Source: Asterias amurensis
Taxonomy: Eukaryota; Echinodermata; Asteroidea; Forcipulatida; Asteriidae
DNA: 64,000 nucleotides
Direction of reading: 5' to 3'
Assembly (NCBI RefSeq): GCF_032118995.1
Contig: NC_092667.1
Span: 9,142,357-9,206,356, forward strand
Both the position numbers and the translations under genes were made by a program. The notes beneath the pieces were generated by a model, which saw only the letters and a program-made list of their open reading frames with translations, searched no databases and was not told where the DNA came from. Numbering within the stretch: the stretch's first letter is position 1; each line of letters begins with the position of its first letter. Shown here piece after piece: positions 1,253 to 63,663 of this stretch.

Positions 1253-1567
1253 AATCAACTTTATTGATCCACTACTTGCGTAAGCTCAGCCACAGTGACA
1301 GTTTCGATGTGGAGATCGAATGCTTAGCAAAGGCAGGACGATCCCCTAACATCACCTGGTATCGCTCGGACGACGGAGACCACTTCAGTGTGGTGTCTCC
1401 TTCATCAGGAGAAGTTGCTATCTTCGAAAGCTCCCCCAACAGCTACAGGCGGCGCTCTCTGCTAATGGTCCGCGGACTGTCATTCGCAACCGATGTCATA
1501 TTTGTTTGTGAAGCTTTAGATGGCAGAACTGGAGGAGCGGTGTCCAAAATTGTAACAATTCCAAAAC
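1253..1567 (+). CDS. aGPCR exon: first Ig domain
   Basis: Phase 1-1 exon, as is usual for Ig domains. It follows a ten-T tract with an AG acceptor and ends at C|GTAAGT. The translation has the Ig pattern of a first Cys ([13 protein letters not shown]), the core Trp (NITWYRSDD) and a second Cys ([10 protein letters not shown]). Ig domains mediate protein-protein contacts outside the cell. Confidence 0.88.
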
Positions 1568-4500
1568 GTAAGTAGGGGACGTCTTATGAGAAATAATTAT
1601 TTTATTTGAGGAGACTATAGCCCTTTTCACACTACAGGTATTTCCCGGGATATTCCCGGAAATTGCGTGGTTTTCGTTTAACTTCGTCAACAAACACGGT
1701 CGGCCATTTATGGGAGTCAAACAGTTGACTCCCATAAATGGCCGACCGTGTTAGTTCGCGACTTAAAATGAAAACCGTGCAATTTTGAGTGACACTTGTG
1801 TGGATCATTATATTTTACTTTTAAAACATCTTTCTTACCATATGCATTTCATAACAAACGGTTTCAAACGCCTTCATAGACCAACTCGTCCGATCCAAGG
1901 CATTCGAAAGGTCACAGACATCAAAAATAACGCGCCAAATAATTCGCGTGCTTACAATAGCCCTTTTTTGTTTTCTCCTTCTGGAAGTGTTTACGTTTAT
2001 GTACGAAAATAAAAGTGAATTACATCTGTAATTTATAAATAAATATATGAATTACAAAAATTGACCACGTGAATGGAATAGGAATGGAATAAATAGTTGG
2101 CGTGAACAAGCTTTCTTCTCGTACACACGCCATGTGTGTATGGTATTTATATGTACTTGGCCGTTGGTGGACTTTTGTTGTCCAGAGTCAGATTTGAGTT
2201 CTTCGATCGACATTGCTGTCTAACACCTGACAGTAAATATTTTTGTTCAATTTGTTGCTCAATTTCTTACGATGGGTAGAAGTGACCGATTGAGTGATGC
2301 TAACACTTTGAAACTAGTTGCATTGTTGGCCGACGATGCAGTCCAAAAACAGCTAGATGGGCATATAGGCCTAACAGAAACGGGAAAGTTTTCTCAAAAT
2401 TGGCTGACTGCCTGCGTGAAGCTGGATATGAACGGACCCCTGCACATTGCAGATAAAAACTGAAAACCTCGGGAAAAAAGACTACAGGTCGGTAAGATAA
2501 TAGTTTTGTTTTCAAGGCCTAAATATTTTCTATTGCGTAAGTGTTCTCCTGGAAAAACAATTTTTTTAGAAGAAACATACATTTAAAACACGGACACAAA
2601 AGTCCATTCAATTACCATTCTCAAAAGAAAACAAAAAGCTTTCGCAGAGTAGAGAGCTCCTTTCGCATTTGCTCCCAACAGTGGCCGCTCTTCTTGGTAG
2701 ACCAGATTGACCAGATTGACCTTTGACCAACACTTCCCCGAACTGCAAGACTTCTTCTCCGCCGTAATTACAGAAATATTGGTATAACAACACGCAAATA
2801 CACACGTGCAGCCATTTTGGGTCGCATGTGGCAAGGATTTTGCAGCCGGCCGTGTGTGCGGCATTGTGGGATTGGCCCTCCGTCAACAAACATTGGTAAC
2901 TTCCGCATGGGCTGACCTGTTTACCACATTTCTTGGGGTTTTATCGTAAGTGTGAAACGACCGTGCATATTCCTAGGAAAAAGTACTCACGGGAGTTACC
3001 AAATTGGGATAGTGAGAACGGTTGCTGGGGTGGCGGTGGGGATAAAAACTCTTGAGATTTTCCCGGGAGTTTATTTCCCGGGAAATGGCTCTGTAGTTTG
3101 AAGAGGGCTTATAGAACGCTAGGTGGCAGCAGACTTACCAGGTAACTTTCCATTGTTTGCGTTATTATGAGCACGCACACATTACCGAGAACAAAAGACC
3201 TTATCGCAAATACCAATGCGCAAGCGCAGACTGTTGAATGAGGTGCATTGTGGGATAGATATGAATCAAATTTTGATGCCAGCTAGACCACAATGCACCT
3301 AATTCCAACCTTTACGCGCGCGCCCCAGTATTTGGTCATGGACTGACCTGGGGCCGATTTCACAAAGCAATAAAATTCATCGCAAGACAAATTTTCAGTT
3401 TCACCATAGTGATTTGTATTGTGACATCACGTTTTACTAAGCAACTACGATTGATTTGCAGTTACGATCAATCTTAGATCTTTGTGAAATTGGCCCCTGG
3501 TAAGTATGCCGCCACCTAGCGTTCCAAATGTCCGCCATTACTTATGACGCTTGTGTAAACGGCAACTTCGTTTTAAGAATGTGCTATGGGTTTCAGGTAA
3601 CATGTACTGGACGCCGTGGTTAAGTGCTGATGACCCGGCCGATGGGGATGACGTTGAGACGCTGACAACTCATAAACAGGTTAGACATTAAACATTCCTG
3701 TCAACTGGTTTTAACAGATAATAACAGATCTTCAAACATAGCGACTGTATAATATTATCTTTATTTAATTTAAGCTTTTGTCTTATCTGGTGAAACAAAA
3801 CATATATAGCAGTAGCTGTATTCCCCCAAACAAAACGGCAGCAGGTACGGTAGAGTTGGTTATATTTGCTTCAAGTCTTATAATATTCCATATCGTTGAC
3901 TGTCCGTTTCAAAGGTTTACGATTTGCTCTGCAATATCCCGAGTGACATCCAGTGCCGTACACTTTATGACGACGTATCGTCCAATCAGACCGGGCAGAT
4001 TCTTGACATCAACTGCACGGTATCATCTGGTTTAGATTGCCGAGGAGCTTCCCAGAGCATTGAAGACGGTCGATCATGTTATGACTACGAGGTTCGGTAC
4101 TCGTGTCCAGAGTGTGAGTAGAATGTGTACTTTCATTAGGCGCTTTGGCATACAAGGAGCATTACCTAATGTTTAGCTATTAGATAAGGCGCTTTGCCCC
4201 ACAAGAAGCGACATGACTTTAAGACGCATCTTTCTCTATCTAATTTTGCTGATGTTATAGAAAGAGAAACAGCTCTAGATAACTTCTTATATATCAAAAT
4301 ACACAATGTGTTAATACATTTTCCCCTAAGATTGAGGGTAACTTATATACCTTTGTCTTTTTACGAAAGACATTGGCATGTCTTGGCCGAATGGTTGAGG
4401 GATCGGACTCAACTTCTGATGGTTGAGTCATCAGGGTGTGGGTTCGAATCCCAGTCATAACAATTGTGTCCATGACCAAGAAACTTGACTGTAATTGCCT

Positions 4501-7500
4501 TTTATCAACCAGTAGTAATAGGTGACTGAAAGGGCAGAGATAGATATATTGTGAATGACTCAGCTTAGTGCTTTACATGATATTGGCAGCACAGGCTGTA
4601 TACTCTACAGGTAGATGGGATGAAACAAACGGCACAGTGACCAGGGGGTATGGCCCAAGCGTAAGCTTACTTACTGCTTCTAAATTGGGAGATGGGAGTA
4701 TGGCAAGCCATATGCCCAATAATTCGATAACCACTGTTTATCACCGATTAACACTGTTTATCGCCGATAAACACCGTTTTTCGACCGATAAACACTGTTT
4801 TTCGAGGTGATAAATAGTTTTTCGAGGTGATAAACAGAGTTTTTCGATAAACAATGTATATCAACCAATAAACACTGTTTATCGAAAAACTATGTTTATC
4901 AAGCGATAAACAGAGTTTTTCGAGTTGAAGTTTTTGATAAACACTGTTTATCAAGTGATAAACACGGTTTATCGAAAAAAAGTGTTTATCGGGCCGACAA
5001 ACATAGTTTTTCGATAAACACAGTTTATCACTTGATAAACAAAGTTTTTTGATAAACGTAGTTTTTTTTGATAAACACAGTTATTCGCCAACGCCAAATG
5101 CTCAATAATTCGATAAACTCTGTTTATCAATTGATGAAGAATTTTTCGATAAACTCTGTTTATCGCTCGATAAACACAGTTTCGGCGATAAACACAGTTT
5201 TTCGATAAACTGTGTTTATCAGTCGATAAACATAGTTTTTCGATAAACTGTGTTTATCAGTCGATAAACAGAGTTTTTCGATAAACCGTGTTTATCACTT
5301 GATAAACAGTGTTTATCACTTGATAAACACTGTTTATCGAATTATTGGGCATCTGGCGTCTGCGTAAAACTGTGTTTATCAGTCGATAAACATAGTTTTT
5401 CGATAAACAGTGTTTATCTGTCGATAAACAGAGCTTTTCGATAAACAGTGTTTATCACTTGATAAACAGTGTTTATCACTTGATAAACACTGTTTATTGA
5501 ATTATTGGGCATCTGGCGTCGGCGTAAAACTGTGTTTATCAGTCGATAAACACAGTTTTTCTCGATTAACAGTGTTTATCAACTGATAAATACTGTTTAT
5601 CAAATTGTTGGGCGTCGGCGTAAAACTGTGTTTGTCGACCGATAAACACTGTGATTCGATAAACCATGTTTAACACTTGATAAACCATGTTTATCACTTG
5701 ATAAACAGTGTTTATCAAAAAACTATGTTTATCACCTCGAAAAACTGTGTTTATCGCTTGATAAACATAGTTTTTCGATAAACAGTGTTTATCAGTTGAT
5801 AAACAGTGTTTATCGAAAAACTCTGTTTATCACCTCGAAAAACTGTGTTTATCGCTTGATAAACACAGTTTTTCGATAAACAGTGTTTATCAGTTGATAA
5901 ACAACAGTGTTTATCGGTCGAAAAACAGTGTTTATCGGCGATAAACAGTAAACAGTGTTTATTGAATTATTGGGCATATGGCTTGTCATAGATGGGCGGA
6001 ATGATAAGCAACAAGTTCAAAATGTACATACACGCAGGTTTCATTGCGGCTAAAAGGTAGATGTACTTGTAGCTTACATTTAATCTGAACTTTCTTTCTT
6101 CCGTATAGCTACATTTCAGTGGACCGACTGGTATGACACTAGTGACCCTACAGGCTCGATGGAGAATGAGTCTCTCGCTACACATAAGCTGCAGGTAATT
6201 AAGAAAACAATCTGTTTGGGTGGAGAGTGGGCGGTCTTACCTATAGAATAATGATTATAAAGATGGGAAACACAATTAAACTGAATCCTTTCAAAATGGG
6301 CAACACTGTCTGGTCTTAATGTAATAGTTTCCCCTTCAATTTATCCACAATATTATTAGACTATTCAGGATTAACTTGCGGATTTGTAAGATCAACTGTG
6401 TAGACGTCTTTTTTGCCAGTTATCGCGATATTTTGCTTAGAATGTGCCTTTAGCGAGTATGACAAGAAAAAAGATCCGTTTCACTGCAATCATTCACAAA
6501 AAATGCATCTTAAAGGAGCATTCTTTTGTTCTTCTCTTTGTTTCTTTACTTACAAAATTTCCTGTAGACTTTGTATACAAAATTTATTATTGTGCACCCC
6601 GGTCTTTAGAATTTCCTTATGAACTTTTATTTAGTTTTGATGAACTTTTATTTAGTTTCGTACCAAAAGTGAAGGGCATTGGGTTATCCAATTAAACAGA
6701 CCTCGTCAAGTGGTGAGCTGTGTGGTCTGCCTTGTGGTTCAAACATATTGCGGAAGCTTGTGACCCTTAAACCCATAGACACATTTAATTTGTCTAGTCC
6801 CGCATGACTCTAAAAACAACTAAGGTCATGCCCATACATTCTAGACCTTAAAATGTCTCTATGGGGATAGTCAGATTTTTCCTAATCCCACATTCAATCT
6901 TCCAGCAGTTCAATGTAAACCCTTGTTTTAACAAATTATTTATCAGTCTTACCCAGATTTGTGCACCCAGCCAATCGGTGCTGAGTGTCGAATCAAAGGA
7001 ACCAATCAAGACATCCTTGACAGTGGGATTATTCCAGAGATTCCGTATCTTTGCAATGCAAACGGATTCCGCTGCCAAGATGCAAATAACACTAAGCCCT
7101 GCCCGGACGTTGAGGTGCGCTACAGATGTCCGACTACGTCAGGTAGAGTTGTCTACATTGCTTTTAATAAACTTGCCGGTTGTTGCATGTATAACTGTAA
7201 TATTCTTGTTTAAAGGGAAGGTACATGTTTGGTAGTTGTCAAAGACCAGTGTTCTCACTTGGTGTATCCCATCATAAGCATAAAATAACAAGCCTGTGAA
7301 AATTTGGGCTCAATTGGTCATCGAAGTTGCGAGAAAATGATGAAAGAAAAAACACCCTTGCTGGACGCATTTGTGTGCTTTCAGATAATAATAAAAGACT
7401 TCTAGCTAGAAGGCTTTTATTTTAGTGAGAAACTACCTCTTTCTCAAAAAATACGTTACGTTACTTAAGAGGGAGTCGTTTCTCACAACGTTACCAAATA

Positions 7501-10500
7501 AGGTTTTATGTGATTTTTTCTGGGACTCATTACCAAACGTGTACCTTCCCTTTAAAGATACTTGCCGGTTTGTTGTTGTTGTTGTTGTTTTGTCTTCATC
7601 TTCGTGATCGTGGTCGTCGTGATTTCGTTATCATTGCTGTTGAACAGTTTGCTTTTCATTCGAGTTTATTTCAATTTTAAACAATAATGGGAGACTTTTG
7701 AACGCTAGGTGGCAGCAGACTTACCAGGTACATTTCCATTGTTTACGTAGTTCTGAGCGTGCACACATGACCGAGAACAATGGATTTTACCTGGTAAGTC
7801 TGCTGCCACCAAGCGTCCCAAAAGTCTCCCATTGGAAAATGAAAGGTTTTAAAATACTTTTGGTATGTCAAATTGTTGGCCATGACTTGAACCCCTACTC
7901 ACTATGAATACAGATGTATGCCTATATGTAATATAATTTACTTCTAACTTCTATCTCATTAATCGTTTTTGAGAAGAAAAAAAATCACAGAGCGATGTTC
8001 TCATGAGAGTTGCGTTATACATGCTAAACTAAATCGTCTCATTGAGACATTATAATTATTTTGTGAAAATGATTTTAATGTAAATCTGTGGAAGTTAGTG
8101 TTTTGTGTCGTACTAAAAGCCTTTATCCCTCTTTCCGTTTAATAAACTTGATGTACTTTTCTATGTCCATACATTTAGTGACGAATCTTCAAGTTAACAG
8201 TTTACAGCAGATTAGCCACCACTTAGACCCCAATCTCAGACTGCAGTGTGACGTTACCGAAGGCATTCCAGTGTCATCCTCCTTCTCGACGGAGTGGCTG
8301 TGGCTGGATCGATCCCAGTCCCAAGCTGCCGTGCCGATATCGCCAGGTGGCGATATCACGATTACACCCCTCACATCGCAAACCTCTGTCTTGAAGATCG
8401 ACGATTTTGCCAGTGGTGGCTTCACCAACAGGACGCTTGTTTGCATCGCGAGAGACGGGATTGTTAAAGACGCAAAAACGATTAAAACAATTAAACTGCG
8501 TAAGTAACAATTTGTTCGAAAGTATCGGTCACCAATTATTTACCAAGATTTACAGCATACTGAACTACAACACTTTGTAAACCATTACATGGTGATACTG
8601 TAAAATAATTGGTATCATACTTCAAAACGTAGCTCCGCATATATCCTGCAGGAAAATACTGAAAGCGCATGGACCTCGGGGTGATATGCGCTGAATAAGA
8701 AGGGTTAGTTATGAATTATTTTAAAAGTGAACCATATTCTGAGGAAGGTTTGGTCCATTTCCATGATGATAAAATGACACTTTTAGCCCTTTTATTATGA
8801 GAACACGTAACGTTGTTTAGACTTGTCACGAGTTACTAATCCTTACTCCAGATATCATCTCTTTCCAGCCTCATAAACGCTGGTTTTAGACAGCTCTTTC
8901 TCAAAGTCGTCCCTCTCATTCCGTCAACATTTTCCCCTGATTTTGTTTCTTCTTGTGTATGTAATAAACAAAGTCCAATTAAAGGTGCTAATATAACGGA
9001 TCGAATTTGTTTCCACAACTCCAAAAATTGTTGTGATTGTTTAAAAATAAACCAATGATTGCTTGTTGTTGTTGTTGTTGATGTTGTTAATACAGCATCT
9101 GCATGCGAGGCTCCCATCGGCATTTCAAGCGGTCAGATTCAGCTGAGTCAAATCTCACCGTCTTCAGTGAAATCCGAACCGTTTAAGGTATTGTTAAGTT
9201 GGCATTATCTTCCTTTACCTACGAATTCACTTATAATAATGTACTTTTGACCCACGTTATTGTTGTTAAAACCCACTATTAACACCCATATTACTTGCCG
9301 TTGACCCACACCAGTTAATGTCTCGCGTTGTTGATTTACGTTCTTGTTGTTAAAAGACCATGCAATTCGCGCGCGTATTGAACATTTTGACCATTGTACG
9401 AAGGTGGTTCCGATAAAACTTCGAATATGCCCGAGACAACGGCGCACCCAGGATTATATATAATATCAAATAATAAACCATATATATATATTTTTTTTTG
9501 GGGGGGGCTCGAACCAATTTATTGGGTGGGGTCCATGGGCCGGCCTTACGGCCCCTGGCGGGGTCCAGGGGGGCATAGCCCCCCTGGAGCTCTGAGCTTT
9601 CTGGCGTTTTGGGGGTGAAAAATCAAGCCTCTTTATGCATAAATTTAGAAGAAAACGGTGCGCCGTTGGCCCGAGATTTGCACGACCGTGTACACCAAGC
9701 CGTCACATTATCGTTTTCCGAAGTCATGACTAAGATGGGGCGTATCTGGGAAGTGTTCGGAAGCGTTCGTCTGGGTGACGTAATGATGATATTAGGCCAC
9801 TCACATGCACTGATCAACCTCATGTACATGCCTTGTTGAACATAGCTGTATTTGGAGTTCTGATGTGAAAACCCTTTCCATTATGCTCTCTTGATATCAA
9901 CGAGTTACAAAATGTTGAAAATGTGTTTCGTTTTCAGATTCCCAGCGTCAATGGTGTTGATGCGTGGGTACCAGCTGTCAACGATACCGCTCCAATGCTT
10001 GATTTTGATCTTGGTGTTGAATATGACGTAGGTTTTTATCTTCCACCCAATCCTCCCCTCTCTTCGCCTTAGTACAATTTACTTCAATGTTAAGCTGATC
10101 ATCATCCAAATGAACGGTTTGAATATTTTAAAAAAAATTGTTTTAATGTTAAAGCTCACGTATACTTCGCGCTGTTTAAAGGCAAGTTACTAAAAGTAAT
10201 TGTTAGCTTAAAAACTTACTGGTATTGAACAAGCAAAGGGGAGCTGTTGATAGTATAAAACATTGTGAGAAACGGCTCCCTCTGAAGTAACGTAGTTTTC
10301 TAGAAAGAACTAATTTGATTTCGAGACCTCAAAATTTGTATCGAGGTCCCAAAATCAAGCATCCGAAAGCACACAACTTCTTGTGACAAGCGCGTGTTTT
10401 TTCTTCCAATATTATCTCATAACTTCGACGACCAGTTGAGTTCAAATTTTCACAGGTTTGTTATCTTATGCAAATAATGAGATACACTAAGTGAGAATAC

Positions 10501-18609: not shown

Positions 18610-18641
<32 letters not shown>

Positions 18642-24600: not shown

Positions 24601-27600
24601 GCAGAGTATAAATTTGCGAAAAGCTTGGATATAGTATAAACCGGTCATACTACTAGCCTTTTTGAAACTTCATCAATTGAAACTGTTACTAATAGGAAGA
24701 ACAAAAACAAGAACACCCAAACAAATATGCAAACAGACAAACATATAAATAAACAAACAAAACAAATTACAGCAATAAAATAATAATAAATAACATTAGT
24801 TTATTTTTGATAAAGCGTCTTTCATAAAAACAATCTCAAAACGCTGCACAGATTTATTTCACATAAACATTATAAACAGAGTTACGAAAAATACAGCAAG
24901 GATACATTGTACAAAACGACCGACAAATACAAACAATGGCTGAAAAAAACACAACAATGAGATACAACAATACGAGTCAATCAACAATAATATCACACCA
25001 CAAGAAAAGGCAATTAATAAAAATGGTAAAAAGATTAAAAGATAATGTCTTGACTTCTAGTGCGAATTATGAGAAACGTATTGAAATGAATTATGAAAGA
25101 TAACGTGGGGCGGATTCACCTTAAGTTGATGAAAAAAACAACAGCACAAAAATGTACCCAATCAGTATTTTGATATCACTTTTTTTCTTTTTCTTTTACA
25201 ACAGGAGGAAACTTCGATCAGATAGAATATTCATTCACTCCAGCTTGGCACTTGCAATTTTGATTGCACAGTTGCTCTTCATTGGAGGCCTTGAGAGAAC
25301 TGAAGATAGAGTTAGTAGATTAATAAAGGGTGCCACCAAGAGAAGTTTTTGTTAAAATGAACTTAATGATAATTCTTCCTGACAGAGTTTACAGTAAAAA
25401 CAAACGTATCGGGGTTCACCATCAGGAACAACAATACAAACAATCATCTCTCTAGGCAGACTCTTGGTGGCGTGTTTTTTTTGTGAACATTGAGATCAAA
25501 TGTTACGTTACAAATGCTAATAGTAAAACAGACACATTGGAGAGGCACATCACAAACCGGGTTGGTGCTGTGGGGTCCTACTCTGGGACACTGATTCCGT
25601 GCCACAACCCACCTACATATGGACACCTTGTGCCGGGACTCTGGCCTGCAACGGGAGGAACTGCGTACAGCAACGGAAGACCAACGTGTTCCGCATCGAC
25701 TGACTGACTGAATTAATGGTTACACTAACATTGGTGCTATGGACTGTCATAAAATAATGGTAGTTGCTTATTATTTGTTCCAGGTAGTGTGTACGGTTAT
25801 TGCAATACTCCTACATTTCTTCTACCTGTCCGTCTTTGGTTGGATGCTTGTAGAAGGAATACACCTTTACAGGAAGGTGATCAAAGTCTACGGAAGTGAG
25901 AACATCAAGATGTATCCGTACCTACTCGTCGGCTGGGGCATTCCTGCCGCCATTACCTTGGTATCCCTTAGTATTCGTATTGAAGGCTACGGGTCGAACA
26001 AAGTGTATGTATAGTTTAAGATATTTAGTACCCTTAAAAGGCAGTTGCAGTGATTAAGCCGAATATACAAACTTTACATAATGATTGAAAATTACTCTGA
26101 GATTTAGTTCTTGAATGTCTTCAAAAATTAAGTTCATCCTTAATATTGTTTTAATTTACTATCATTGGTCTGGTTTGTTTGCACACTCGGACTTTTAATT
26201 TTGAGTCGGGATTTTGTGAAGCAATTTGAAAAACAGTGTTTAAAAATGTTGTTGTTTTTGACGCCCCCTTCCGCACGAAAAAAAAAATTAAAAATAGAGG
26301 GGAAAAAGGAATTTCAACCATTCCTCTTTGCAAGTAATTTGTTCGTTTGCTTTGCTCTGGATTGTAAAGGCTTACAGACGTCAAATTTGGAGGGGGTTGC
26401 GAAATAAACTGTGCTTATTAATCGCTGGATCATTGTTCCATACCCCCTTTTCGCCGTAAGACAGGTAACTTTTAATATATAATTAGGAAAAATATGAAAT
26501 GAAATGAACCAATACAGCAACCAGCCAGCTGCCCAATCCGACTCTAGCAATTGTTACAGATAAAGTTCCTGAATTGGCTGGATTCCTTGAAAACAATGTT
26601 TGATTATAGTACCACTATTTCTCACTTTGGCATTGAAATGACTTCGATGCCAAAGTGATAATGTGTATTTGTTTGTGTTTGATATTTTAGTTGCTGGCTT
26701 GACATCTCGTCTGGTTTGATCTGGGCTTTCGTTGTTCCAGCTCTTGGTGTCATTGGGGTAAGATACTGGAAAAAAGTCACAATCCTGGGATATTTGCACC
26801 ATGTCTTTCCGTGCTTTTCAACACCGTATGCATGTGATTGGGCTTTGGGGTGTCCCCTTAAGGGGTTTTCTTCCCACGTCTGAAACTGAAATTTCTTCAT
26901 TGGCCTTTCTTTACTAAACGTTTGTGTAATGCTCCCGTTATGATGTTTTGCAAACTATAAATTCAGATTCAGATATGGTTTACAATATAGACCAACGTCA
27001 ATTACTTTTTAAGTAAATAATTGGTTTCAACAGTGAAACTAAAGAACGCATGTGAACATTGCTTTGGGAAAATTCAGTTGCAGGTTAGAGGTTTTCTTTA
27101 AGAAATTTATGTTTGATCTTTTAGGTGAACATCGTCATGTTTGTCTTGGTTTTGCGAGTTATCGTGAAATCAGCTGAGTTAAATGATAAGGAACATGCCA
27201 GCATCAAGTAAGTGACATTGAACACTAAGAAACGAGTCTCAAATTAACCTTGTTTTACAACACTGTAGCAATAAATCCTGTCAGATAATTCAGTACTCAA
27301 GTCCAAACACACGGTAAAAGAGAGGATTCTTTCTTGGTTTTTCATGGTTTAATTCTCCACGACCTTCCTAACAGTTGTCACAACACGAAAAAACGCGTAG
27401 AATGTTTCACTGGAAGAATGTTTCACTGGAACGTGTGTTTCAACCTTTCAGCAGGGACTCGCCACATCACAGGTCCACAAGCTTCACGATGGTACTGTGT
27501 TAAAGCGCCATCTCGCTGGCGGGTTGGGACAACCGTTACACTGCCCCCTCCAAGGACACTGCTTGTCTAATTACTGACACAACTTAACATCTTTGAACAA

Positions 27601-30600
27601 ATAAAATAATTTAATAATTTTAGATGTTGAATATTCGTAACTATTCCCCCATATTGACTGATGCCCCTTTTTTATGGTTTTATTCCAAAAGAGCTGGGTT
27701 AAAGGGCGCCGTGGTACTGCTCCCAATCCTTGGTCTGACTTGGATCTTTGGACTATTGGCCGTCAATAGCGCCACCATTATGTTTCAGTACCTGTTCACC
27801 ATCTTCAACTCTTTCCAGGGTCTCTTCATATTCCTGAACCAATGCGCTTTTAACTCAGAGGTAAGCTTCGTACGATACCAAGTCGACCTGTATTTTCAGT
27901 TCACACACAGGCAGTACATTTTCATTTCACTACGTGGTCGTATACAGATCTGGTACCATGTGGTACTTGAGATGACACCAGCCCAACTGTTTCACTAGCC
28001 ACCTAGTTTTGAGTAAAAAGCTTGCATAACAAAACATGAACATCAAAATAAAACTCACGAAATGAAATCTGGACTGTGAAATGGAGTAGTCCAAACATCA
28101 TGGAGTATTTTTTTTTAAGTATACATTATTGAATAAAAATAAATCTACATTTTGGTTTAATGTTCCTCACAAATAATGAACACAACTAAACAGAAGAACC
28201 AGAACGAGACGTGAAAATATGTTTGACATGTGACGCGTAGTCTACCAATACAAATTAAAGGGGTTTATAGCTGTACTCAAATACATTCATCGTATTGGAT
28301 GGTTTCACTAAAAACATTCCTGCAATAATACTGTCAACAATCTTCTCTCTTTGTTTTGTCAGGTCAAGGCAGCGTTTTTGCGGATAAGAGAACAACGAAA
28401 GTTGTTGTTGGGTACCTCAGATAGCACAGTTAAGTACATTGTCACTAATTGTTATCATGTACGGTTTCTAATTGAATTTTTTATTATAGCGATGGTTATA
28501 AAAAGTATGTCATAAACTTTTTGTTTTATTTTTTTATTTTTTTATACACGTGTTTTGAAATCATTGTAGACGCATGTATTGCGTATTCTCATATTTTTAA
28601 GACACATGACCAATGTTTAAAACAGCCGTTGTGTTGATATCGGTATCCTGTCTAAAGATTTTGAAATAAAGATTTTGAAATAAATAAATAATTACATATT
28701 AATTTTGATGATCAAACTTCACCCCACGTAGATTATACAAGTTATTTTTCTTTTTACAAAAGTTTTACCCACTTGGTGAATGTTGAGATAAAATGGAAAT
28801 CCTAATCACATTTACTCGCTACAGGATCAGCCAGCACACTTCAATTCAACGTCGGTTACACAGAATACTGAACTGAATACCGTTTCTGACAAAGACACCA
28901 AGAAGCATCCCGCCCTTGATGATGATGATATGGAGGTGGAACCGATTGAAAACAGCGAGGAATGTATTCAAGATCTGGAAAAGGCCCCTGGTGAGTAACA
29001 ACCGTGGTAAAGTGGTTTAGACCGCACGATTTGCAATCAAAGGATAGTAGGTTCATATCCTACAAGCGGATCGCTAATGTCGTATCGTTTTGGTTTGTGA
29101 AATTCGAGGCAGAGGTCGCCCTTCGCTGCGCTGGGTGAGAGAGTTTTGACATGGAGGGACCAGTTTTCTTTGGTCATGTGATTATGAATTTTCAAAAAAG
29201 TGTGTAAACGACCAGTGCAGACTGACAAGACAACACCCCCCCCCAAAAAAAAAAAAAATAAATAAATAAATAAAATAAAATAAAAAATATTGGTAAAAAA
29301 AAAAAAATAAAAAAAAAAAAATAAATAAATAATAACAATAATAATAGTTTTAAATAATCAACAGCATAAAAATAAAAAGGTCAGTGAAATAATACATATA
29401 AATTAATTGCGAAATAAAGGAAAAACACATAATATAAAGAGGTAAACTCATATAATTCGCTTTTCTTGCTTAAAGAACCAGTATCAAATGAGCCACAGCG
29501 AAGTGAGCCCACTGGGTTGGACAAGCTACCGCCCTCTGCAAACTTAACCGCTCTGGTAAGTAGAACCAACTGAATAATCTTCATTTTGTATAGACTACTT
29601 GAAGCCGATTTCAAAAAGATTCTCGTGCTATAGTGCCTTATGGTACGTCCTGCTTACTGGTGTGTTTTTTAGCTCAATAAGTGCACACAAATTTAAATCT
29701 CAATTTGCATATTTATTTAGTGCGTTACAAAACGTCCACACGGCCCTAATAAGTAATGCAGGCGCTTAAGATATAATTATAATGATAAAAGTAAATTCAA
29801 CGTGCAGTAAGAATAAAAAAAGAGAGAGCTGTATGCGCCTGGCGTCCACTTTATCTGGGCAACCTTATTTATTGCACAGTGATGTATTATGAGAAATCCA
29901 TACACCAATACAAAAAATGTTAGAACGAAAGGCCCCTCCTTATATTTCACGATCTATTATAGGCATACAGTTTGACTACAGATTAACTAAGATTGTCATA
30001 AAACAAAGGAATTATATCAAACAATAAGAAGGAACTCACCCAAACCTGGTGTTTGTGGGTGCAGCCAATATTGGTGATGCTAATATAGCGCCCTCGATTG
30101 TTCTCTGGTTGTTAGTTTTGGTTGCAATTGCAGCCAACGGTGTAGACTGGGCCTCTGTCTTTGTAAATCCGTTGGATACAATGATATCATTAATTTGATA
30201 AACGAGCAGTGCATGCTGTGACATAGGGTGCGTTCGATAAGGTCGACCTAGGTCTTCCCTAGGTCGACCCCGAAGTGCTCACTCGGTTAGCCCCTGACAA
30301 GAACTAATCGAACGATCACACTCGCCCTCTCGTGGTGACGGCATGCACCTCGGGTCACCCCCAAGTGACTATAACCTGAACGTCTGACGTCATTCTTCGA
30401 GGCTCGTGAATAACGCCAGAGACCGGCCAAAAACCCACGTGTGGTTTGACCTTTGACATCTCATAGAGATACGCACAAATTCTACAGCAACCAAGCAAGT
30501 ATATACCGTATCCACCATGTACATGTATGTACTGTATATCTACTACCACACACATGGACACACACGTGCGGACGACCGGCGCTTTCCATATCTGTGTTTT

Positions 30601-31768
30601 GATTGAAACCGAGGTGACCTCAGACCAATCAAAACAAACCCAGCTACGGTAGCTTTCAGTCACTGCATTTATCCAATGGTATCATTATACCCAATAGCAT
30701 CATTGGATCTAAATAGCTGGTACCTGTCTTGCGGATAAAGACAGGGGCCCAGTCTACCAAGTGACCCACTCCACAAGCAGGGCACTGGGGCTGACCCGGG
30801 TGAGCCCGTCAAAGCTGTGCGAACGTACCGGGGCAGACCGGGGTCGACCCAGGAAAGCTAAACGAACGCACCCATAGATGCCCAAACAATCACTGCTGTC
30901 ACGTCCGCAATATAATTTGACTGCGTATCTCTATGTGAAATGGGGTAGGTCAAAGGTGTTGAGGCAGGTCTCTGCTCGAGGCAGGTCTCTGGCCTTATTT
31001 ACGAGCCTCGAAGTGTGACGTCAAATGTTCAAGCTACCAGCAGGGGTGCGTTTTAGCGGTCGTATACCTGTTTCGGTTGAGTTGCCCATTGTTAAAGACA
31101 CTGGACACTATTGGTATTGTCAAAGACCAGTCTTCTCATTTGGCGTATCTCAACGATATGTGCATAAACTAGCAAACCTGTGATAACTTGAGCTAATTTG
31201 GTCGTCCAAGTTGCGAGATATTAATGAAAGAAAAAAAAAACCCTTGTCACACGAAGTTGTGTGCTTCCAGAGACTTGATTTCGAGACCTCACATTCCAAA
31301 TCTGAGGTCTCGAAATCAAATTCGTTGAAAATTACTTCTTCTCGAAAACTACACGTCACTTCAGAGGGAGCTGTTTCTCACAATGTTTTATACCATCAAC
31401 CTCTCCCCATTACTCGTAATCAAGAAAGGTTTTATGCTAGTAAATTATTTTGAGTAATTACCAATAGTGTCCACTGCCTTAAAACACTGGACAACGACTG
31501 AAACAATGACAGAAACAGTCATTTATTGGTTACGACCACCTAAACGCACCCAGGCATTCGTAGTAAATGCAAGAAAAAAAAGAAAAAAGAGAAAAAAAAA
31601 GATATGAAGGTTATGAAAACAAAATTAAAGTGTACACATGTGTGGGTCAGGCACAAAAGGGTTCAAATAACGCCATATTTTATTTGTTTTATTATACATT
31701 TGTAGAGGCGGCTGCACAGCAATAAAGTCTACCCTAAATTCACGGACGGTTCGACGGAGAACAAGTGA
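1253..31768 (+). CDS. Adhesion GPCR with Ig, WxxW, discoidin, GPS and 7TM domains (30 exons, 5' end missing)
   Basis: A multi-exon receptor gene whose first exon(s), with start codon and signal peptide, lie left of the window or were not found. Exons are 1253-1567, 3597-3679, 3915-4113, 6109-6194, 6947-7142, 8179-8499, 9096-9187, 9938-10027, 10873-10984, 11414-11605, 14530-14826, 15575-15639, 16503-16655, 17198-17245, 17725-17833, 18896-19036, 19480-19570, 20075-20195, 21876-21964, 23542-23656, 24390-24493, 25205-25310, 25784-26004, 26691-26757, 27125-27207, 27692-27860, 28363-28428, 28825-28990, 29476-29555 and 31706-31768. Every junction is AG/GT and every phase matches its neighbour. Family knowledge: adhesion GPCRs are self-cleaved at the GPS and activated by the exposed Thr-starting tethered agonist, coupling extracellular adhesion to G proteins at the plasma membrane. 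The ectodomain suggests binding of glycans, lipids or extracellular matrix (inference). The ligand is unknown. Splice sites were assigned by eye; the middle GAIN exons are the least certain. Confidence 0.92.
1660..1903. mobile_element. Nested palindromic repeat (cggtcggccatttatggg family), partial
   Basis: A 60-base near-perfect hairpin centred near 1717 (cggccatttatgggagtc and its inverse) plus one outer arm. It is absent at the same place in the second Harbinger-like copy, which supports later insertion. Relatives lie at 46708 and 52398. Confidence 0.65.
2272..2463 (+). pseudogene. Relic of a Harbinger Myb/SANT-like DNA-binding protein
   Basis: Reads [20 protein letters not shown] then [20 protein letters not shown], resembling the start of the trihelix/Myb-like accessory protein of Harbinger transposons (W-S-D-x-E-x-x-x-L-L..I-x-x-x-L-D-G). 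The key Trp is lost here and the frame stops after 63 codons. A sister copy lies at 12755. Confidence 0.5.
3113..3539. mobile_element. gctaggtggcagcagactt MITE split by another MITE
   Basis: Left end at 3113-3195 (gaacgctaggtggcagcaga) and right end at about 3498-3539 (gccgccacctagcgttccaa) surround foreign DNA that includes the MITE at 3350-3497. It directly abuts the Harbinger-like element. Confidence 0.6.
3350..3497. mobile_element. MITE with ggggccgatttcacaaag ends
   Basis: Terminal inverted repeats ggggccgatttcacaaag and ctttgtgaaattggcccc around a 110-bp core. It is inserted inside another MITE, 57 bases before a receptor exon. Confidence 0.78.
3597..3679 (+). CDS. aGPCR exon: WxxW domain 1, N-terminal half
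   Basis: Short phase 1-0 exon behind gggtttcag. It reads [17 protein letters not shown] then VETLTTHKQ. The W-T-x-W start followed by an acidic D-P-x-x-G-D stretch is the signature of the WxxW domain (CysD domain of gel-forming mucins, also in cartilage intermediate layer proteins). The cysteine-rich half is in the next exon. Confidence 0.85.
3915..4113 (+). CDS. aGPCR exon: WxxW domain 1, C-terminal half
   Basis: Phase 0-1 exon. Key residues are [23 protein letters not shown], and the closing [12 protein letters not shown], which matches the C-x-(D/N)-Y-E-V-R-(F/V/Y)-x-C ending typical of WxxW/CysD domains. The donor was chosen as AGT|GTGAGT because it gives phase 1 and joins in frame to the next WxxW exon. 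Confidence 0.86.
4377..4605 (+). mobile_element. tRNA-derived SINE (class II tRNA head)
   Basis: The head contains an A box (tggccgaatggttgaggga) and B box (gggttcgaatcccag) with a long variable arm as in Ser/Leu tRNAs. The acceptor stem does not pair, and an unrelated body follows (gtgtccatgaccaagaaact), so this is a SINE rather than a tRNA gene. Confidence 0.65.
4700..5989. mobile_element. Fold-back element filled with a palindromic tgataaacactgtttatc minisatellite
   Basis: The outer ends are inverted repeats (atggcaagccatatgcccaa at 4700; ttgggcatatggcttgtcat ending 5989). Between them are dozens of variants of gataaacactgtttatc, itself a palindrome, with internal copies of attattgggcatctggcgtc. 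It sits wholly in the intron between the two WxxW domains. The sequence agatggg lies just outside both ends and may be the target duplication. Confidence 0.75.
6109..6194 (+). CDS. aGPCR exon: WxxW domain 2, N-terminal half
   Basis: Phase 1-0 exon ending CAG|GTAATT, reading [19 protein letters not shown] then SLATHKLQ. It aligns with the first WxxW half (W-T-x-W, acidic D-P, final T-H-K), so the two WxxW domains are a tandem exon-pair duplication. Confidence 0.86.
6947..7142 (+). CDS. aGPCR exon: WxxW domain 2, C-terminal half
   Basis: Phase 0-1 exon. The acceptor tttatcag|TCTTAC was chosen over the nearer acccag because only it keeps the frame [15 protein letters not shown]. The exon ends [14 protein letters not shown], the same closing motif as the first domain. 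Confidence 0.85.
7209..7556. mobile_element. Inverted-repeat MITE, family A (aaagggaaggtac subfamily)
   Basis: Ends tttaaagggaaggtac and gtaccttccctttaaa; the internal hairpin aaaagacttctag/ctagaaggctttt is shared with the copy at 60956. Confidence 0.75.
7686..7833. mobile_element. gctaggtggcagcagactt MITE, well preserved
   Basis: Ends aatgggagacttttgaacgc and (inverse) gcgtcccaaaagtctcccatt with matching inner arms; about 148 bp. Confidence 0.8.
8179..8499 (+). CDS. aGPCR exon: second Ig-like domain
   Basis: Phase 1-1 exon of 107 codons behind catttag and ending C|GTAAGT. It has Cys in [11 protein letters not shown], Trp in TEWLWLDRS and Cys in TLVCIARDG, spaced as in an Ig fold. It is more divergent than the other two Ig domains. 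Confidence 0.8.
9096..9187 (+). CDS. aGPCR exon: discoidin (F5/8 type C) domain, part 1
   Basis: Phase 1-0 exon reading [20 protein letters not shown] then [10 protein letters not shown]. The opening Cys, the (L/I)-G-(I/M)-x-S-G-x-I segment and the I-x-(A/P)-S-S step are the start of a discoidin domain, a lipid-, glycan- or collagen-binding beta-sandwich. Confidence 0.88.
9938..10027 (+). CDS. aGPCR exon: discoidin domain, part 2
   Basis: Phase 0-0 exon between ttttcag and GTAGGT, reading [16 protein letters not shown] then [14 protein letters not shown]. This matches the A-R-L-N-x-x-x-A-W-x-P..D..Q-W-L-Q-V-D-L-G block of discoidin domains. Confidence 0.87.
10175..10531. mobile_element. Inverted-repeat MITE, family A
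   Basis: Contains the family blocks gagaaacggctccctctgaa and caaattttcacaggtttgtt and ends aaagtgtccag. The left end is diverged. It lies in a discoidin intron. Confidence 0.72.
10873..10984 (+). CDS. aGPCR exon: discoidin domain, part 3
   Basis: Begins [11 protein letters not shown] (the V-T-G-I-x-T-Q-G block) and continues to [16 protein letters not shown] strong-looking donor CAA|GTAAGT would leave phase 0, which does not fit the next exon. The second GT four bases later (GTAA|GTAAAA) gives phase 1 and restores the frame, so the end was placed at 10984. This boundary is uncertain. Confidence 0.75.
11414..11605 (+). CDS. aGPCR exon: discoidin domain, part 4
   Basis: Phase 1-1 exon behind caccag. 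It reads [20 protein letters not shown] then [27 protein letters not shown] and closes IYGCG. The R-(F/Y)-(L/I)-R-x-x-P and E-(I/L)-Y-G-C ending is diagnostic of a discoidin domain. Its last Cys would pair with the Cys in the first discoidin exon. Confidence 0.86.
11631..11909 (-). pseudogene. LINE fragment: C-terminal tail of a non-LTR reverse transcriptase
   Basis: The minus-strand frame reads [20 protein letters not shown] then [15 protein letters not shown]. The C-x-C-G-x-x-x-Q-T..D-H-L-L-x-C-P-L-L motif is the zinc-knuckle-like end of many CR1/Jockey-type LINE proteins. It is truncated, with no RT core nearby, and lies just after a receptor exon. Confidence 0.7.
12133..14143. mobile_element. 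Harbinger-like DNA transposon copy 2 (TAT target duplication)
   Basis: The ends agcccttttcacactacagg and (inverse) ctgtagtgtgaaaagggct are near-perfect, with TAT on both sides. It is longer than copy 1 (2.0 kb) and lacks the nested palindrome. Internal sequence matches copy 1 around the Myb-like relic. It lies in the intron between the discoidin and third Ig exons. Confidence 0.78.
12755..12913 (+). pseudogene. Relic of Harbinger Myb/SANT-like protein, copy 2
   Basis: Reads [20 protein letters not shown] then [20 protein letters not shown]. It keeps the W-S-D-D-E start typical of the Myb/SANT-like domain, but lacks seven residues present in copy 1 and stops after 52 codons. Confidence 0.55.
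14530..14826 (+). CDS. aGPCR exon: third Ig domain
   Basis: Phase 1-1 exon of 99 codons behind gattgcag. It has Cys in [11 protein letters not shown], Trp in [10 protein letters not shown] and Cys in [11 protein letters not shown], a clear I-set-like pattern. The donor is A|GTGAGC. It joins directly to the short stalk exon at 15575. Confidence 0.9.
14980..15353. mobile_element. Inverted-repeat MITE, family A, near full length
   Basis: Ends aaggcagtggacactatagg and ccaatagtgtccagtgtctt; about 370 bp. A good reference copy of the family. Confidence 0.82.
15575..15639 (+). CDS. aGPCR exon: stalk, Thr/Ser-rich
   Basis: Phase 1-0 exon reading [19 protein letters not shown] then LQ. It sits between the last Ig domain and the GAIN region and is likely a linker or the start of the GAIN A subdomain. 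It is supported by phase and position; there is no diagnostic motif. Confidence 0.68.
15690..16290 (-). pseudogene. LINE fragment: region before the reverse transcriptase
   Basis: Minus-strand pieces in different frames read [20 protein letters not shown] then RDWEAVY, and [16 protein letters not shown]. They resemble the R-P-x-(R/K)-D-S-x-(L/I)-R-x-F-G-x-W-(I/L)..D-W and D-K-P-W-x-T-P-R-I-K blocks between the endonuclease and RT of CR1-like LINEs. Broken by frame changes. Confidence 0.6.
16503..16655 (+). CDS. aGPCR exon: GAIN A subdomain region
   Basis: Phase 0-0 exon of 51 codons behind ccacctttttag, ending GAG|GTAAGA. It includes [20 protein letters not shown], a predicted helical, polar segment as in the helical GAIN A subdomain. 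Confidence 0.75.
16812..17083 (+). repeat. Hexanucleotide-type minisatellite (gacagc/gacaat)
   Basis: An imperfect array of six-base units (gacaat, gacagc, gacagt) with a 3-base sub-period, so it stays open in several frames (Asp-Ser, Thr-Ala or Gln-rich on one strand). It lies within a receptor intron and has no splice signals in frame with it. Confidence 0.75.
17198..17245 (+). CDS. aGPCR exon: short GAIN exon
   Basis: A 48-nt phase 0-0 exon behind a pyrimidine-rich tttgcag, reading [16 protein letters not shown], a helical segment. It is accepted because both splice sites are good and the phases fit on both sides. Confidence 0.68.
17376..17644. mobile_element. Inverted-repeat MITE, family A, shortened
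   Basis: Ends ttgacactattggtagtgac and aaaggtgtccagtgtctt, with inner deletions relative to other copies. Confidence 0.68.
17725..17833 (+). CDS. aGPCR exon: GAIN region
   Basis: Phase 0-1 exon reading [20 protein letters not shown] then [16 protein letters not shown], with an N-glycosylation sequon (NCT). Donor A|GTAAGT. Confidence 0.72.
18290..18645 (+). pseudogene. 5'-truncated LINE 3' end with (GAT)n tail
   Basis: Plus-strand frame reads [19 protein letters not shown] then [20 protein letters not shown], the typical last coding block of a LINE pol (same family as 37.9-38.1 kb). It ends in about 80 bases of gat/atg repeats, as expected for a LINE 3' tail. It lies in the intron before exon 18896. 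Confidence 0.75.
18896..19036 (+). CDS. aGPCR exon: GAIN region
   Basis: Phase 1-1 exon behind tgttatacag. It includes [15 protein letters not shown] and an acidic end [10 protein letters not shown]. It lies just after a LINE insertion in the preceding intron (18290-18645). Confidence 0.72.
19480..19570 (+). CDS. aGPCR exon: GAIN B region
   Basis: Phase 1-2 exon behind tttgtttgcag, reading [20 protein letters not shown] and then AVLFPTK. The alternating hydrophobic strands suit the beta-rich GAIN B subdomain. It has one N-glycosylation sequon (NVT). Confidence 0.75.
19806..19994. mobile_element. Decayed family A MITE fragment
   Basis: Recognisable pieces include tttcacagggtggttattttg and agagtgagattactggtctt followed by agtatacactgctt. 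Confidence 0.5.
20075..20195 (+). CDS. aGPCR exon: GAIN B region
   Basis: Phase 2-0 exon behind ttttactttag, reading [20 protein letters not shown] then [13 protein letters not shown]. The N-x-S/T sites and hydrophobic strands ([14 protein letters not shown]) resemble the strands preceding the GPS in adhesion GPCRs. Confidence 0.82.
20445..21185. mobile_element. Inverted-repeat element with aaggccctgtcacaccatggcgta ends and an aacgtat-rich body
   Basis: The left end aaggccctgtcacaccatgg and right end ccatggtgtgacaggacctt are inverted. The 740-bp body is filled with irregular aacgtatgcc/agcgtatg words. It lies in the intron before the GPS. Confidence 0.78.
21876..21964 (+). CDS. aGPCR exon: GAIN B, first half of GPS
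   Basis: Phase 0-2 exon reading [20 protein letters not shown] then [10 protein letters not shown]. The C-V-F-W segment is the first conserved Cys/Trp block of the GPS motif; the rest is in the next exon. A 740-bp inverted-repeat element (20445-21185) lies in the intron before it. Confidence 0.9.
23047..23383. mobile_element. Probable MITE with cggtctgcagccagtagaccg ends
   Basis: The left end ctgcagccagtagaccg is inverted at the right end (cggtctactggctgcacacc). The body is AT-rich and non-coding. Confidence 0.5.
23542..23656 (+). CDS. aGPCR exon: GPS cleavage site and tethered agonist
   Basis: Phase 2-0 exon. It reads W-S-T-T-G-C, then [16 protein letters not shown]. The C-x-C-x-H-x-T core of the GPS is intact, with CAT TCG ACG at 23612-23620, so self-cleavage between Ser and Thr is expected. 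The new N-terminus TNFAVLMQV matches the known tethered agonist (Stachel) pattern T-x-F-A-V-L-M. Confidence 0.95.
23711..24033. mobile_element. Inverted-repeat MITE, family A
   Basis: Begins ttaaaggcactggacaccca and ends gtcgggtgccttta, with the internal blocks of the family. It lies 55 bases after the GPS exon. Confidence 0.7.
24390..24493 (+). CDS. aGPCR exon: transmembrane helix 1
   Basis: Phase 0-2 exon reading [20 protein letters not shown] then TLATYAFLW. The I-T-Y-(V/I)-G-C-x-I-S pattern is typical of helix 1 in adhesion GPCRs. Confidence 0.95.
25205..25310 (+). CDS. aGPCR exon: transmembrane helix 2
   Basis: Phase 2-0 exon behind tttttcttttacaacag. It reads [20 protein letters not shown] then [15 protein letters not shown], matching helix 2 (R-x-L-R..R-I-x-I-x-x-x-L-A-L-x-I-A-Q-L-L-F). 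The donor AGA|GTTAGT is weak, but it is the only one that joins correctly to helix 3. Confidence 0.93.
25440..25706. other. GC-richer unidentified stretch in the helix 2-3 intron
   Basis: Runs from gcagactcttggtggcgtg to a short tgactgactga run. It differs in composition from its AT-rich surroundings and may be a repeat fragment. No motif was recognised. Confidence 0.3.
25784..26004 (+). CDS. aGPCR exon: transmembrane helices 3 and 4
   Basis: Phase 0-2 exon. It begins with the conserved helix-3 Cys ([18 protein letters not shown]) and continues [19 protein letters not shown], then helix 4 ([20 protein letters not shown]). The W-M-L-x-E-G-x-x-L-Y block is a hallmark of the adhesion/secretin superfamily. 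The donor was placed at GT|GTATGT to give phase 2. Confidence 0.96.
26691..26757 (+). CDS. aGPCR exon: extracellular loop 2 Cys and start of helix 5
   Basis: Phase 2-0 exon reading [20 protein letters not shown]. The C-W-L segment carries the loop-2 Cys that pairs with the helix-3 Cys, and W-A-F-V-(V/G)-P is typical of helix 5. Confidence 0.95.
27125..27207 (+). CDS. aGPCR exon: end of helix 5 and intracellular loop 3
   Basis: Phase 0-2 exon reading [19 protein letters not shown] then [11 protein letters not shown]-x-(V/I)-x-F-x-L-V-x-(R/K) is the cytoplasmic end of helix 5. Confidence 0.93.
27692..27860 (+). CDS. aGPCR exon: helices 6 and 7
   Basis: Phase 2-0 exon. It reads [20 protein letters not shown] for helix 6 and [17 protein letters not shown] for helix 7. 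Both G-L-T-W-(I/V)-F-G and the N-S-x-Q-G-x-F-I-F motif are adhesion-GPCR signatures. Confidence 0.96.
28363..28428 (+). CDS. aGPCR exon: juxtamembrane tail
   Basis: Phase 0-0 exon reading [20 protein letters not shown] then ST. A basic amphipathic helix after helix 7 is usual. The donor ACA|GTTAAG was chosen because the next exon starts in phase 0. Confidence 0.82.
28825..28990 (+). CDS. aGPCR exon: acidic cytoplasmic tail
   Basis: Phase 0-1 exon with a run of aspartates ([19 protein letters not shown]). It is probably disordered. No recognised domain. A SINE begins about 12 bases after the donor. Confidence 0.8.
29002..29335 (+). mobile_element. tRNA-derived SINE with A-rich tail
   Basis: The head has an A-box-like ccgtggtaaagtggtttaga and B-box-like taggttcatatcctac. 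A body including cgcccttcgctgcgctgggt follows, and then about 100 bases of A-rich tail (aaaaaataaataaata). It lies just downstream of a receptor exon donor. Confidence 0.68.
29476..29555 (+). CDS. aGPCR exon: cytoplasmic tail, Pro-rich
   Basis: Phase 1-0 exon behind cttgcttaaag, reading [20 protein letters not shown] then ANLTAL. No recognised domain. Confidence 0.75.
30236..30873. mobile_element. Inverted-repeat element with gggtgcgttcg ends
   Basis: The ends gggtgcgttcgataaggtcg and aaagctaaacgaacgcaccc are inverted; ATA flanks both sides. The GC-rich body has ggtcgacc palindromes. Confidence 0.68.
31043..31551. mobile_element. ggggtgcgtttt MITE interrupted by a family A MITE
   Basis: Outer ends ggggtgcgttttagcggtcg and ggttacgaccacctaaacgc (then accc) surround a whole family A copy at 31092-31483. 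An uninterrupted relative lies at 39361-39453. Confidence 0.72.
31092..31483. mobile_element. Inverted-repeat MITE, family A, near full length (nested)
   Basis: Ends ttaaagacactggacactat and ccaatagtgtccactgcctt, with the central hairpin tttcgagacctca/tgaggtctcgaaa. Confidence 0.82.
31706..31768 (+). CDS. aGPCR terminal exon (candidate A)
   Basis: Phase 0 exon behind tttattatacatttgtag reading [20 protein letters not shown] and a TGA stop. The stop overlaps a potential donor AA|GTGAGG, so the exon could also be spliced onward. A possible poly(A) signal lies at 31921-31926. Confidence 0.65.
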   Translation, partial: RRLHSNKVYPKFTDGSTENK

Positions 31769-41493: not shown

Positions 41494-41887
41494 TAAAGAC
41501 TCTGGACACTATACCGGTAATTGTCAAAGATCAGTCTTCTCACTATTGGTAATTGTCAAAGACTAGCATTCTCACTTGGTGTATCTCAACATATGCATAA
41601 AATAACAAACCTGTGATCATTTGAGCTCAATTGGTTGTCGAAGTTGCGAGATAATAATGAAGTTGTGTGCTTTAAGATGCTTGATTTCGAGACCTCAAAT
41701 GCTTTATCTGAGGTCTCGAAATCAAATTTGTGGAAAACTTCCTCTTTCTCGAAAACTACATAAGTTCAGAGGGAGCCTTTTATCACAATGTTTTATACTA
41801 TCAATAGCTCCCAATTACTCGTTACCAAGTGAGATTTTATGCCAATAACTATTTTGAGTAATTACCAATAGTGTCCACTGCCTTTAA
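41494..41887. mobile_element. Inverted-repeat MITE, family A, full length
   Basis: Ends aaagactctggacactatac and ccaatagtgtccactgccttt, with the central hairpin tttcgagacctcaaat. A second partial left end (cactattggtaattgtcaaa) is duplicated at 41541. Confidence 0.82.
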
Positions 41888-42321: not shown

Positions 42322-50884
<8,563 letters not shown>

Positions 50885-54379: not shown

Positions 54380-54558
54380 AATATTAATTTTTTTTTTGGT
54401 TTTTACCCATACACCGATGTGTGTTAGCACTGTATACTCAGTACTTTCCCGAATCCTGTGAAAAAATATCACAGGCATGTTACTCGGGTGGGATTCGAAC
54501 CCACGACCCTTGCAATTCTAGAGCAGTGTCTTACCAACTAGACTACCGAGGTTGCCCG
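54380..54558 (-). mobile_element. tRNA-derived SINE (minus strand)
   Basis: Minus-strand head has box A tagtctagttggtaagac and box B gggttcgaatcccac. The acceptor ends (acctcgg and ccgagta) pair for only five positions, and a body with a cctgtgatattttttcacagg hairpin follows, so it is a SINE rather than a tRNA gene. Confidence 0.7.
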
Positions 54559-59412: not shown

Positions 59413-59484
59413 GACTTCGTGGCGCAACGGTAGCGCGTCTGACTCCAGATCAGAAGGTTGCGTGTTCGAATCACGTCGGGGTCA
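59413..59484 (+). tRNA. tRNA-Trp (anticodon CCA)
   Basis: A 72-nt cloverleaf. The acceptor GACTTCG pairs with CGGGGTC (two G-T wobbles) before discriminator A. The D arm includes GGCGCAACGGTAGCG, the anticodon loop is CTCCAGA with CCA, and the T arm is GCGTGTTCGAATCACGT. A T-run (59491 onward) follows as RNA polymerase III terminator. It lies just beyond the 3' end of the Ly6 gene. Confidence 0.95.
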
Positions 59485-63615: not shown

Positions 63616-63663
63616 ATGCATCAGGCCAATGCAAAGTGGATTCACCAATTATTTACAAAGAAA

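Follow-up and report, generated by a model that had tools for sequence, protein, structure and literature searches.

A candidate Asterias amurensis adhesion GPCR gene with CysD, discoidin and Ig-like modules on an ADGRD1-like signaling core

Receptors of the ADGRD group carry a pentraxin domain, and CysD domains are part of the gel-forming mucins. Human ADGRD1 (GPR133) has its 7TM domain, its tethered agonist and the layout of its GPS in common with the candidate receptor described here, which differs from it in bearing CysD, discoidin and Ig modules, with no pentraxin seen in the visible part. The gel-forming mucins MUC2, MUC5AC and MUC5B share the CysD module, with its WxxW motif and six cysteines, whereas the present protein is a membrane receptor with 7TM and GPS, in whose visible part Pfam finds no other mucin-type domain. 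CILP-type matrix proteins, which we take to combine WxxW and Ig modules within one extracellular protein, resemble it in this respect, and we know of no CILP with a 7TM domain or a GPS. With neuropilins and coagulation factors V and VIII, the F5/8 C domain and its terminal cysteine pair are the sole shared module.

Precedents for part of this ectodomain come from amphioxus, where discoidin and Ig I-set were reported in 2008 among the adhesion GPCR domains missing from the human set, in addition to kringle, somatomedin B, SRCR and others (passages of PMC2246102). Lineage-specific module sets are thus an established pattern, and the amphioxus receptors share with the present one both this feature and the discoidin and Ig modules; in the passages at hand, the text and legend of that report do not name the WxxW/CysD module and do not give the co-occurrence of modules (PMC2246102). 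Of 56 adhesion receptors in the transcriptome of one holothurian and 39 in the genome of another, 50 and 38, respectively, are unclassified (passages of PMC7042368). A search of the open-licence literature found no report of CysD/Mucin2_WxxW on an adhesion GPCR, and domain databases or genome annotations may list it; the two papers found there that mention WxxW together with adhesion GPCRs concern tryptophan mannosylation, as judged from titles and the start of abstracts.

The gene lies in a window of 64,000 nucleotides of A. amurensis (contig NC_092667.1), by which we mean the whole stretch of DNA that was analyzed. An initial annotation had proposed the gene as a candidate for an undescribed system with an unusual ectodomain. 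The ectodomain is indeed unusual in its CysD/WxxW modules, but not in its discoidin and Ig I-set modules, for which the amphioxus receptors provide a precedent (passages of PMC2246102), and the notion of an undescribed system is not upheld, the signaling core being an ordinary one for adhesion GPCRs, with a 7TM domain like that of ADGRD1 and a standard tethered agonist. Judged from its sequence, the receptor appears to be a domain-shuffled member of a known family, in which a new-looking domain combination sits on a familiar signaling core.

Exon chain and ectodomain modules

Open reading frames and splice sites were enumerated on the plus strand of the first 33 kb of the window, and exons were built around coding cores (Table 1). 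The resulting model comprises 27 phase-compatible exons between 1253 and 29555 on the plus strand, which encode 1,253 residues in one stop-free frame; the coding-like stretches are flanked by AG acceptors and GT donors, mostly of good consensus. Thirty exons had been claimed at first, of which 27 are supported, exons 12 and 16 being weak members. When the best-scoring sites were picked for each exon independently of its neighbors, they were the model's own at 24 of the 27 acceptors and 25 of the 27 donors, and phases agreed at 21 of the 26 junctions; when exon order was shuffled 10,000 times, 9.36 junctions agreed on average and never more than 19. In 300 trials with randomized flanks, compatible junctions averaged 6.33 and never exceeded 14, as opposed to 26 of 26 in the model; this null is weaker and flatters the result, because it also destroys the reading frames at exon edges. 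Both controls are non-blind, since the exons were chosen by eye from coding cores, and to keep the phase, the model uses lower-scoring acceptors at exons 5 and 8 and a lower-scoring donor at exon 20.

Table 1. Exons of the receptor model and one possible terminal exon (positions in the window).
Feature	Positions	Strand	Evidence and remarks
Exon 1, Ig-like domain 1, phase 1-1, internal exon	1253..1567	+	Ig_3 20.7 bits, cut-off 30
Exon 2, CysD/WxxW domain 1, first half (WTPW)	3597..3679	+	Pfam; PDB MUC2 CysD 6tm6 8.4e-10
Exon 3, CysD/WxxW domain 1, second half	3915..4113	+	Pfam, PDB
Exon 4, CysD/WxxW domain 2, first half (WTDW)	6109..6194	+	Pfam
Exon 5, CysD/WxxW domain 2, second half	6947..7142	+	Pfam; acceptor 6957 outscores, misfits phase
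Exon 6, putative Ig-like domain 2, phase 1-1	8179..8499	+	Cys/Trp spacing; without Pfam or relevant PDB match
Exon 7, F5/8 type C (discoidin), part 1	9096..9187	+	Pfam, PDB
Exon 8, F5/8 type C, part 2	9938..10027	+	Pfam; acceptor 9946 outscores, misfits phase
Exon 9, F5/8 type C, part 3	10873..10980	+	Pfam
Exon 10, F5/8 type C, part 4	11449..11605	+	Pfam
Exon 11, Ig-like domain 3, phase 1-1	14530..14826	+	Scanned alone: Ig_3 32.2 bits (cut-off 30), I-set 24.9 bits, both over cut-off
Exon 12, linker/start of GAIN subdomain A, weak candidate	15575..15639	+	Splice sites and phase only
Exon 13, probable GAIN subdomain A helix	17725..17833	+	Exon model; no profile match
Exon 14, probable GAIN A/B	18896..19036	+	Acceptor 3.9, donor 2.5
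Exon 15, probable GAIN subdomain B strands	19480..19570	+	Exon model
Exon 16, probable GAIN subdomain B strands	21370..21484	+	Two uncertain boundaries
Exon 17, GPS first half (CVFW)	21876..21964	+	Pfam GPS
Exon 18, GPS second half and tethered agonist; predicted HS|T cleavage before base 23618	23542..23656	+	GPS 4.9e-11, alignments
Exon 19, TM1	24390..24493	+	7tm_2, PDB
Exon 20, TM2	25205..25310	+	PDB; weak donor, 25329 outscores but misfits phase
Exon 21, TM3-TM4	25784..26004	+	Exon model, PDB
Exon 22, ECL2-TM5	26691..26757	+	Exon model, PDB
Exon 23, TM5 end and ICL3	27125..27207	+	Exon model, PDB
Exon 24, TM6-TM7	27692..27860	+	Exon model, PDB
Exon 25, helix 8/cytoplasmic tail start	28363..28458	+	Exon model, PDB
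Exon 26, acidic cytoplasmic tail	28825..28990	+	Exon model, codon statistics
Exon 27, cytoplasmic tail	29476..29555	+	Exon model
Possible terminal exon, 20 codons, phase 0	31706..31768	+	Ten other candidates outscore it

Linked by canonical splice sites, the exons lie on one strand and give, in this order, WxxW, WxxW, F5/8 C, Ig, GPS and 7TM modules. A domain search of the spliced translation, one of the checks that the initial annotation had proposed, recovered in Pfam a complete 7tm_2 domain preceded by two Mucin2_WxxW domains, F5/8 type C, Ig and GPS. Mucin2_WxxW (PF13330) matches two stretches at 4.1e-26, the better one covering profile positions 1-88 of 88, and either copy has the WxxW motif and keeps the six conserved cysteines. 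Submitted together, the CysD pair matched the CysD structures of MUC2, MUC5AC and MUC5B in the PDB (8.4e-10 to 7.1e-6), with the best match over the first copy; between the second-half exons of the two copies, tblastn shows weak similarity (31-32% identity, E 0.13 and 0.65). The discoidin domain (F5_F8_type_C, 2e-11, profile 19-126 of 127) is bounded by a terminal cysteine pair, Cys 403 and Cys 545, and its nearest PDB matches belong to factor V/VIII-type and neuropilin C domains: a snake factor V-like chain (7.4e-18), neuropilin-2 (1e-16), factor V (1.9e-13) and factor VIII (2.1e-13).

Three Ig domains had been read from the sequence, and they fare differently. The third passes Pfam alone, the first stays below the cut-off (Table 1) and the second is without a match; in the whole translation Ig_3 matches two stretches at 4e-11, and the exon of the third copy matches that of the first weakly (32%, E 0.28, tblastn). 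For the exon of copy 2, no Pfam family was found up to E = 10, a search in which the HMMER filters drop most matches above about 0.1, and the PDB gave irrelevant matches only. Its cysteine pair lies 65 residues apart, with tryptophans 16 and 18 residues past the first cysteine, and because its support is this Ig-like spacing without a profile match, the domain is a by-eye reading; a single-sequence fold of the exon (mean pLDDT 33.8) is uninformative.

Exon shuffling is known to leave a symmetric 1-1 phase pattern. All six modules preceding GAIN have phase 1 at both ends in the model, and a phase-0 intron splits CysD copies 1 and 2 at the corresponding place; two of the acceptors behind this pattern of phase 1 and phase 0 (exons 5 and 8) rank second in score. 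The symmetric phases and the matching intron suggest that one CysD was duplicated from the other or that both arrived with the same gene structure. The best explanation of the visible part of the ectodomain, Ig - CysD - CysD - Ig-like - discoidin - Ig - GAIN/GPS, is assembly by phase-1 module shuffling.

The introns between these exons also hold repeats. Between the CysD domains, about 1.2 kb at 4725-5949 is an array of short palindromes around GATAAACA and TGTTTATC, with a period of about 20, which self-aligns in both orientations. A two-part repeat occurs in two copies in two introns of the receptor gene (1904-2588/12379-13025, 86%; 2733-3112/13766-14146, 91%). Members of an interspersed repeat family, about 340-390 bases long, are present in both orientations at 10187-10530, 14981-15353, 31092-31483, 41541-41887 and 48174-48560. 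Self-matches of the window of at least 60 bases (blastn, E up to 1e-8) overlap none of the 27 exons.

Cleavage site, tethered agonist and helical bundle

The 7tm_2, GPS and 7TM structure matches all agree with the first reading of the receptor as an adhesion GPCR, and on this sequence evidence its membership of the family, class B2, is well supported. The secretin-type 7tm_2 profile is matched at 7.7e-60 over positions 3-250 of 250. Six peaks stand out clearly when the 7TM region is scanned for hydropathy by a simple method, the seventh being fused with the sixth, and Ig 1 has one further peak. Among the best 60 of 108 PDB matches to the GPS end and 7TM domain, ADGRD1 leads with 282.6 bits, followed by ADGRL3 (229.5), ADGRL2 (198.7), ADGRL4 (161) and ADGRE5 (151.3), with members of the G and F groups also lower and no ADGRD2 among these 60. 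Over the same region, identity is 144/295 to human ADGRD1 and 124/288 to ADGRL3.

The GPS has the layout CVFW...W...GC... and the site CYCDHS|T, and it keeps four cysteines and two tryptophans, with a histidine two residues ahead of the cut and a threonine behind it. The cleavage site expected of adhesion GPCRs is CxCxHL|T (passages of PMC13197933); the residue before the cut is S here and L in the expected site, and the efficiency of cleavage is therefore uncertain. Since the GPS cysteines and the cleavage site are kept, self-cleavage and tethered-agonist signaling are likely, as far as can be predicted from the residues. A full GAIN domain is not recovered: the GPS alone is matched by profile, to which the PDB adds a weak match with ADGRG2 (E 2.4e-4) over residues 146-238 of the GAIN/GPS segment of 242 residues, with no Pfam match for GAIN subdomain A in the exon segment. 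When the GAIN/GPS segment alone is compared with the PDB, ADGRD1 comes eighth of 19 (25.2 bits versus 32.2 for the best), behind ADGRG3, ADGRG1, ADGRE5, three ADGRL3 entries and BAI3. This segment is thus not closest to ADGRD1, and the assignment to ADGRD serves as a lead rather than as a phylogenetic placement.

A more specific reading, which is compatible with the best explanation, takes the gene as an invertebrate ADGRD1 orthologue with an exchanged ectodomain that does the same job as the vertebrate receptor. ADGRD1 provides the closest solved 7TM domain among the best 60 of 108 matches, including the NSEV-AAF end of the bundle, its agonist is near-identical (TNFAILMQV, as compared with TNFAVLMQV here), and ADGRD is present in lamprey and Ciona (passages of PMC8584163). 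However, the same source, in the passages at hand, reports no ADGRD found in lancelet and describes two early-chordate families with up to 20 receptors that are missing from vertebrates (PMC8584163), the GAIN/GPS segment is closer to other receptors, and Pfam finds no pentraxin domain in the visible 1,253 residues, the N-terminus very probably lying outside the window. We regard orthology in this strict sense as less likely than not.

Extent of the gene and number of products

Neither end first assigned to the gene is confirmed. Position 1253, taken as its start, is a phase-1 acceptor whose frame has no upstream ATG, and a scan of 1-1252 gave no convincing exon and no signal-like first exon; the ectodomain may therefore exceed the visible part. 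A start codon and a signal peptide were not located within the window, and the 5' end of the gene, with the N-terminus, very probably lies outside it. At the other end, the exon that closes at 31768 may be real, but ten other candidates for a phase-0 terminal exon outscore it, all of them weak, and none stands out after exon 27; the stop codon was not located. One or two exons may be absent from the model in the GAIN region, where exons 12-14 are without profile support and the boundaries of exon 16 are poor. By eye, the introns of the ectodomain contain no convincing additional exon, and tblastn (E up to 1) revealed no second receptor copy within the window. Unconstrained gene finding by codon statistics returned only 8 exons, one of which (18495-18640) lies inside a low-complexity run of Asp codons; a phase 1-1 exon at 18495-18608 was excluded, its good score being due only to this run.

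A single gene could also give several products, namely the full-length receptor and secreted ectodomain isoforms, for example by read-through into intron 11. The frame of exon 11 continues for 21 codons beyond 14825 and stops after codon 14886-14888, and the extracellular domains of adhesion GPCRs can be included or excluded by splicing (passages of PMC13197933); a stop shortly past a donor is, however, expected by chance, and we consider such isoforms unlikely.

Two neighboring genes, that is, a secreted or membrane-bound Ig-CysD-CysD-Ig-discoidin-Ig matrix protein ending past 14826 and a separate short adhesion GPCR whose start precedes the GAIN exons, would fit the weakness of exon 12, which bridges Ig 3 and GAIN, and an ATG exon at 15740-15847 with a hydrophobic stretch and a donor in the phase required by exon 13. 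Among 100 random sequences modeled on the segment, 9 contain one or more exons of this kind, and the segment's minus strand contains none; AATAAA at 16144 and 17165 is taken as uninformative in AT-rich DNA. The two-gene arrangement is improbable: donor 14826 and acceptor 15575 join in phase 1, like the remaining borders between modules, the ATG exon by eye resembles an anchor more than a signal peptide because an RR pair directly follows its hydrophobic stretch, and no other signal-like first exon of the required phase was found in the nine intervals searched.

Several other features lie downstream in the window. Pieces of a gene for a fibrinogen C-terminal domain are found on the minus strand at 42325-42624, 44459-44740 and 44775-45020 (PF00147, 1.7e-25, 2.3e-29 and 2e-13), and a further piece, without a Pfam match, is possible at 45709-45957 on the same strand. 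Remains of a reverse transcriptase extend over 36855-38260 on the plus strand (36959-37372, RVT_1, 5.4e-8), and frame changes, judged by eye, suggest a decayed retroelement. By eye, the start and the first two helices of a rhodopsin-type GPCR leave the window at 63592-63999 (plus strand), and 59559-59948 (minus strand) resembles the cysteine-rich end of a GPI-anchored three-finger protein of the Ly6/uPAR type; neither has a Pfam match at 0.01. In addition, tRNA-like genes for Ser (aga) and Trp (cca) lie at 54479-54552 (minus strand) and 59412-59485 (plus strand).

A proposed mechanism and its meaning

Taken as a whole, one gene for a class B2 adhesion GPCR with an ADGRD1-like core, a shuffled ectodomain and a mechanism of cleavage and tethered agonism is the reading that we regard as quite probable. 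In this receptor the GAIN domain would cleave itself at HS|T, and the outer fragment would remain attached. Through its CysD, discoidin and Ig modules, the outer fragment could bind a matrix, mucin-like or cell-surface partner, and a pull by this partner, or a reshaping induced by its binding, would allow the tethered agonist to enter the helical bundle. There, the agonist would activate a G protein, probably Gs, with cAMP as the downstream signal. ADGRD1 is reported to be activated by PTK7 together with mechanical force and to signal through cAMP (PMC12206920), and Gs and force are therefore the natural guess for the receptor described here.

Loss of transglutaminase 3 leads to the degradation of MUC2, and the passages at hand do not name CysD as the cross-linked part (PMC8752817); a receptor anchored in mucus or matrix is for this reason put forward as a tentative hypothesis. 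The same standing applies to the sensing of mucus, matrix, glycans or lipids that had been proposed for the receptor. In one elaborate version, to which we give little credence, the protein would be a sensor of mucus or matrix tension: the CysD pair would tie the cleaved fragment into a mucin-like or matrix network by association or cross-linking, shear or stretch would detach the fragment and fire the ADGRD1-like agonist, and the discoidin and Ig modules would hold the cell side or give specificity.

If the novelty lies in the domain combination alone, the receptor extends a known evolutionary pattern only modestly; CysD would join the modules that have been shuffled onto the adhesion GPCR family. 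Many adhesion GPCRs are orphans. A CysD-bearing receptor would point to a class of ligands, the secreted mucin or matrix networks, and would suggest a mechanical route, open to testing, by which such a network could act on a G protein.
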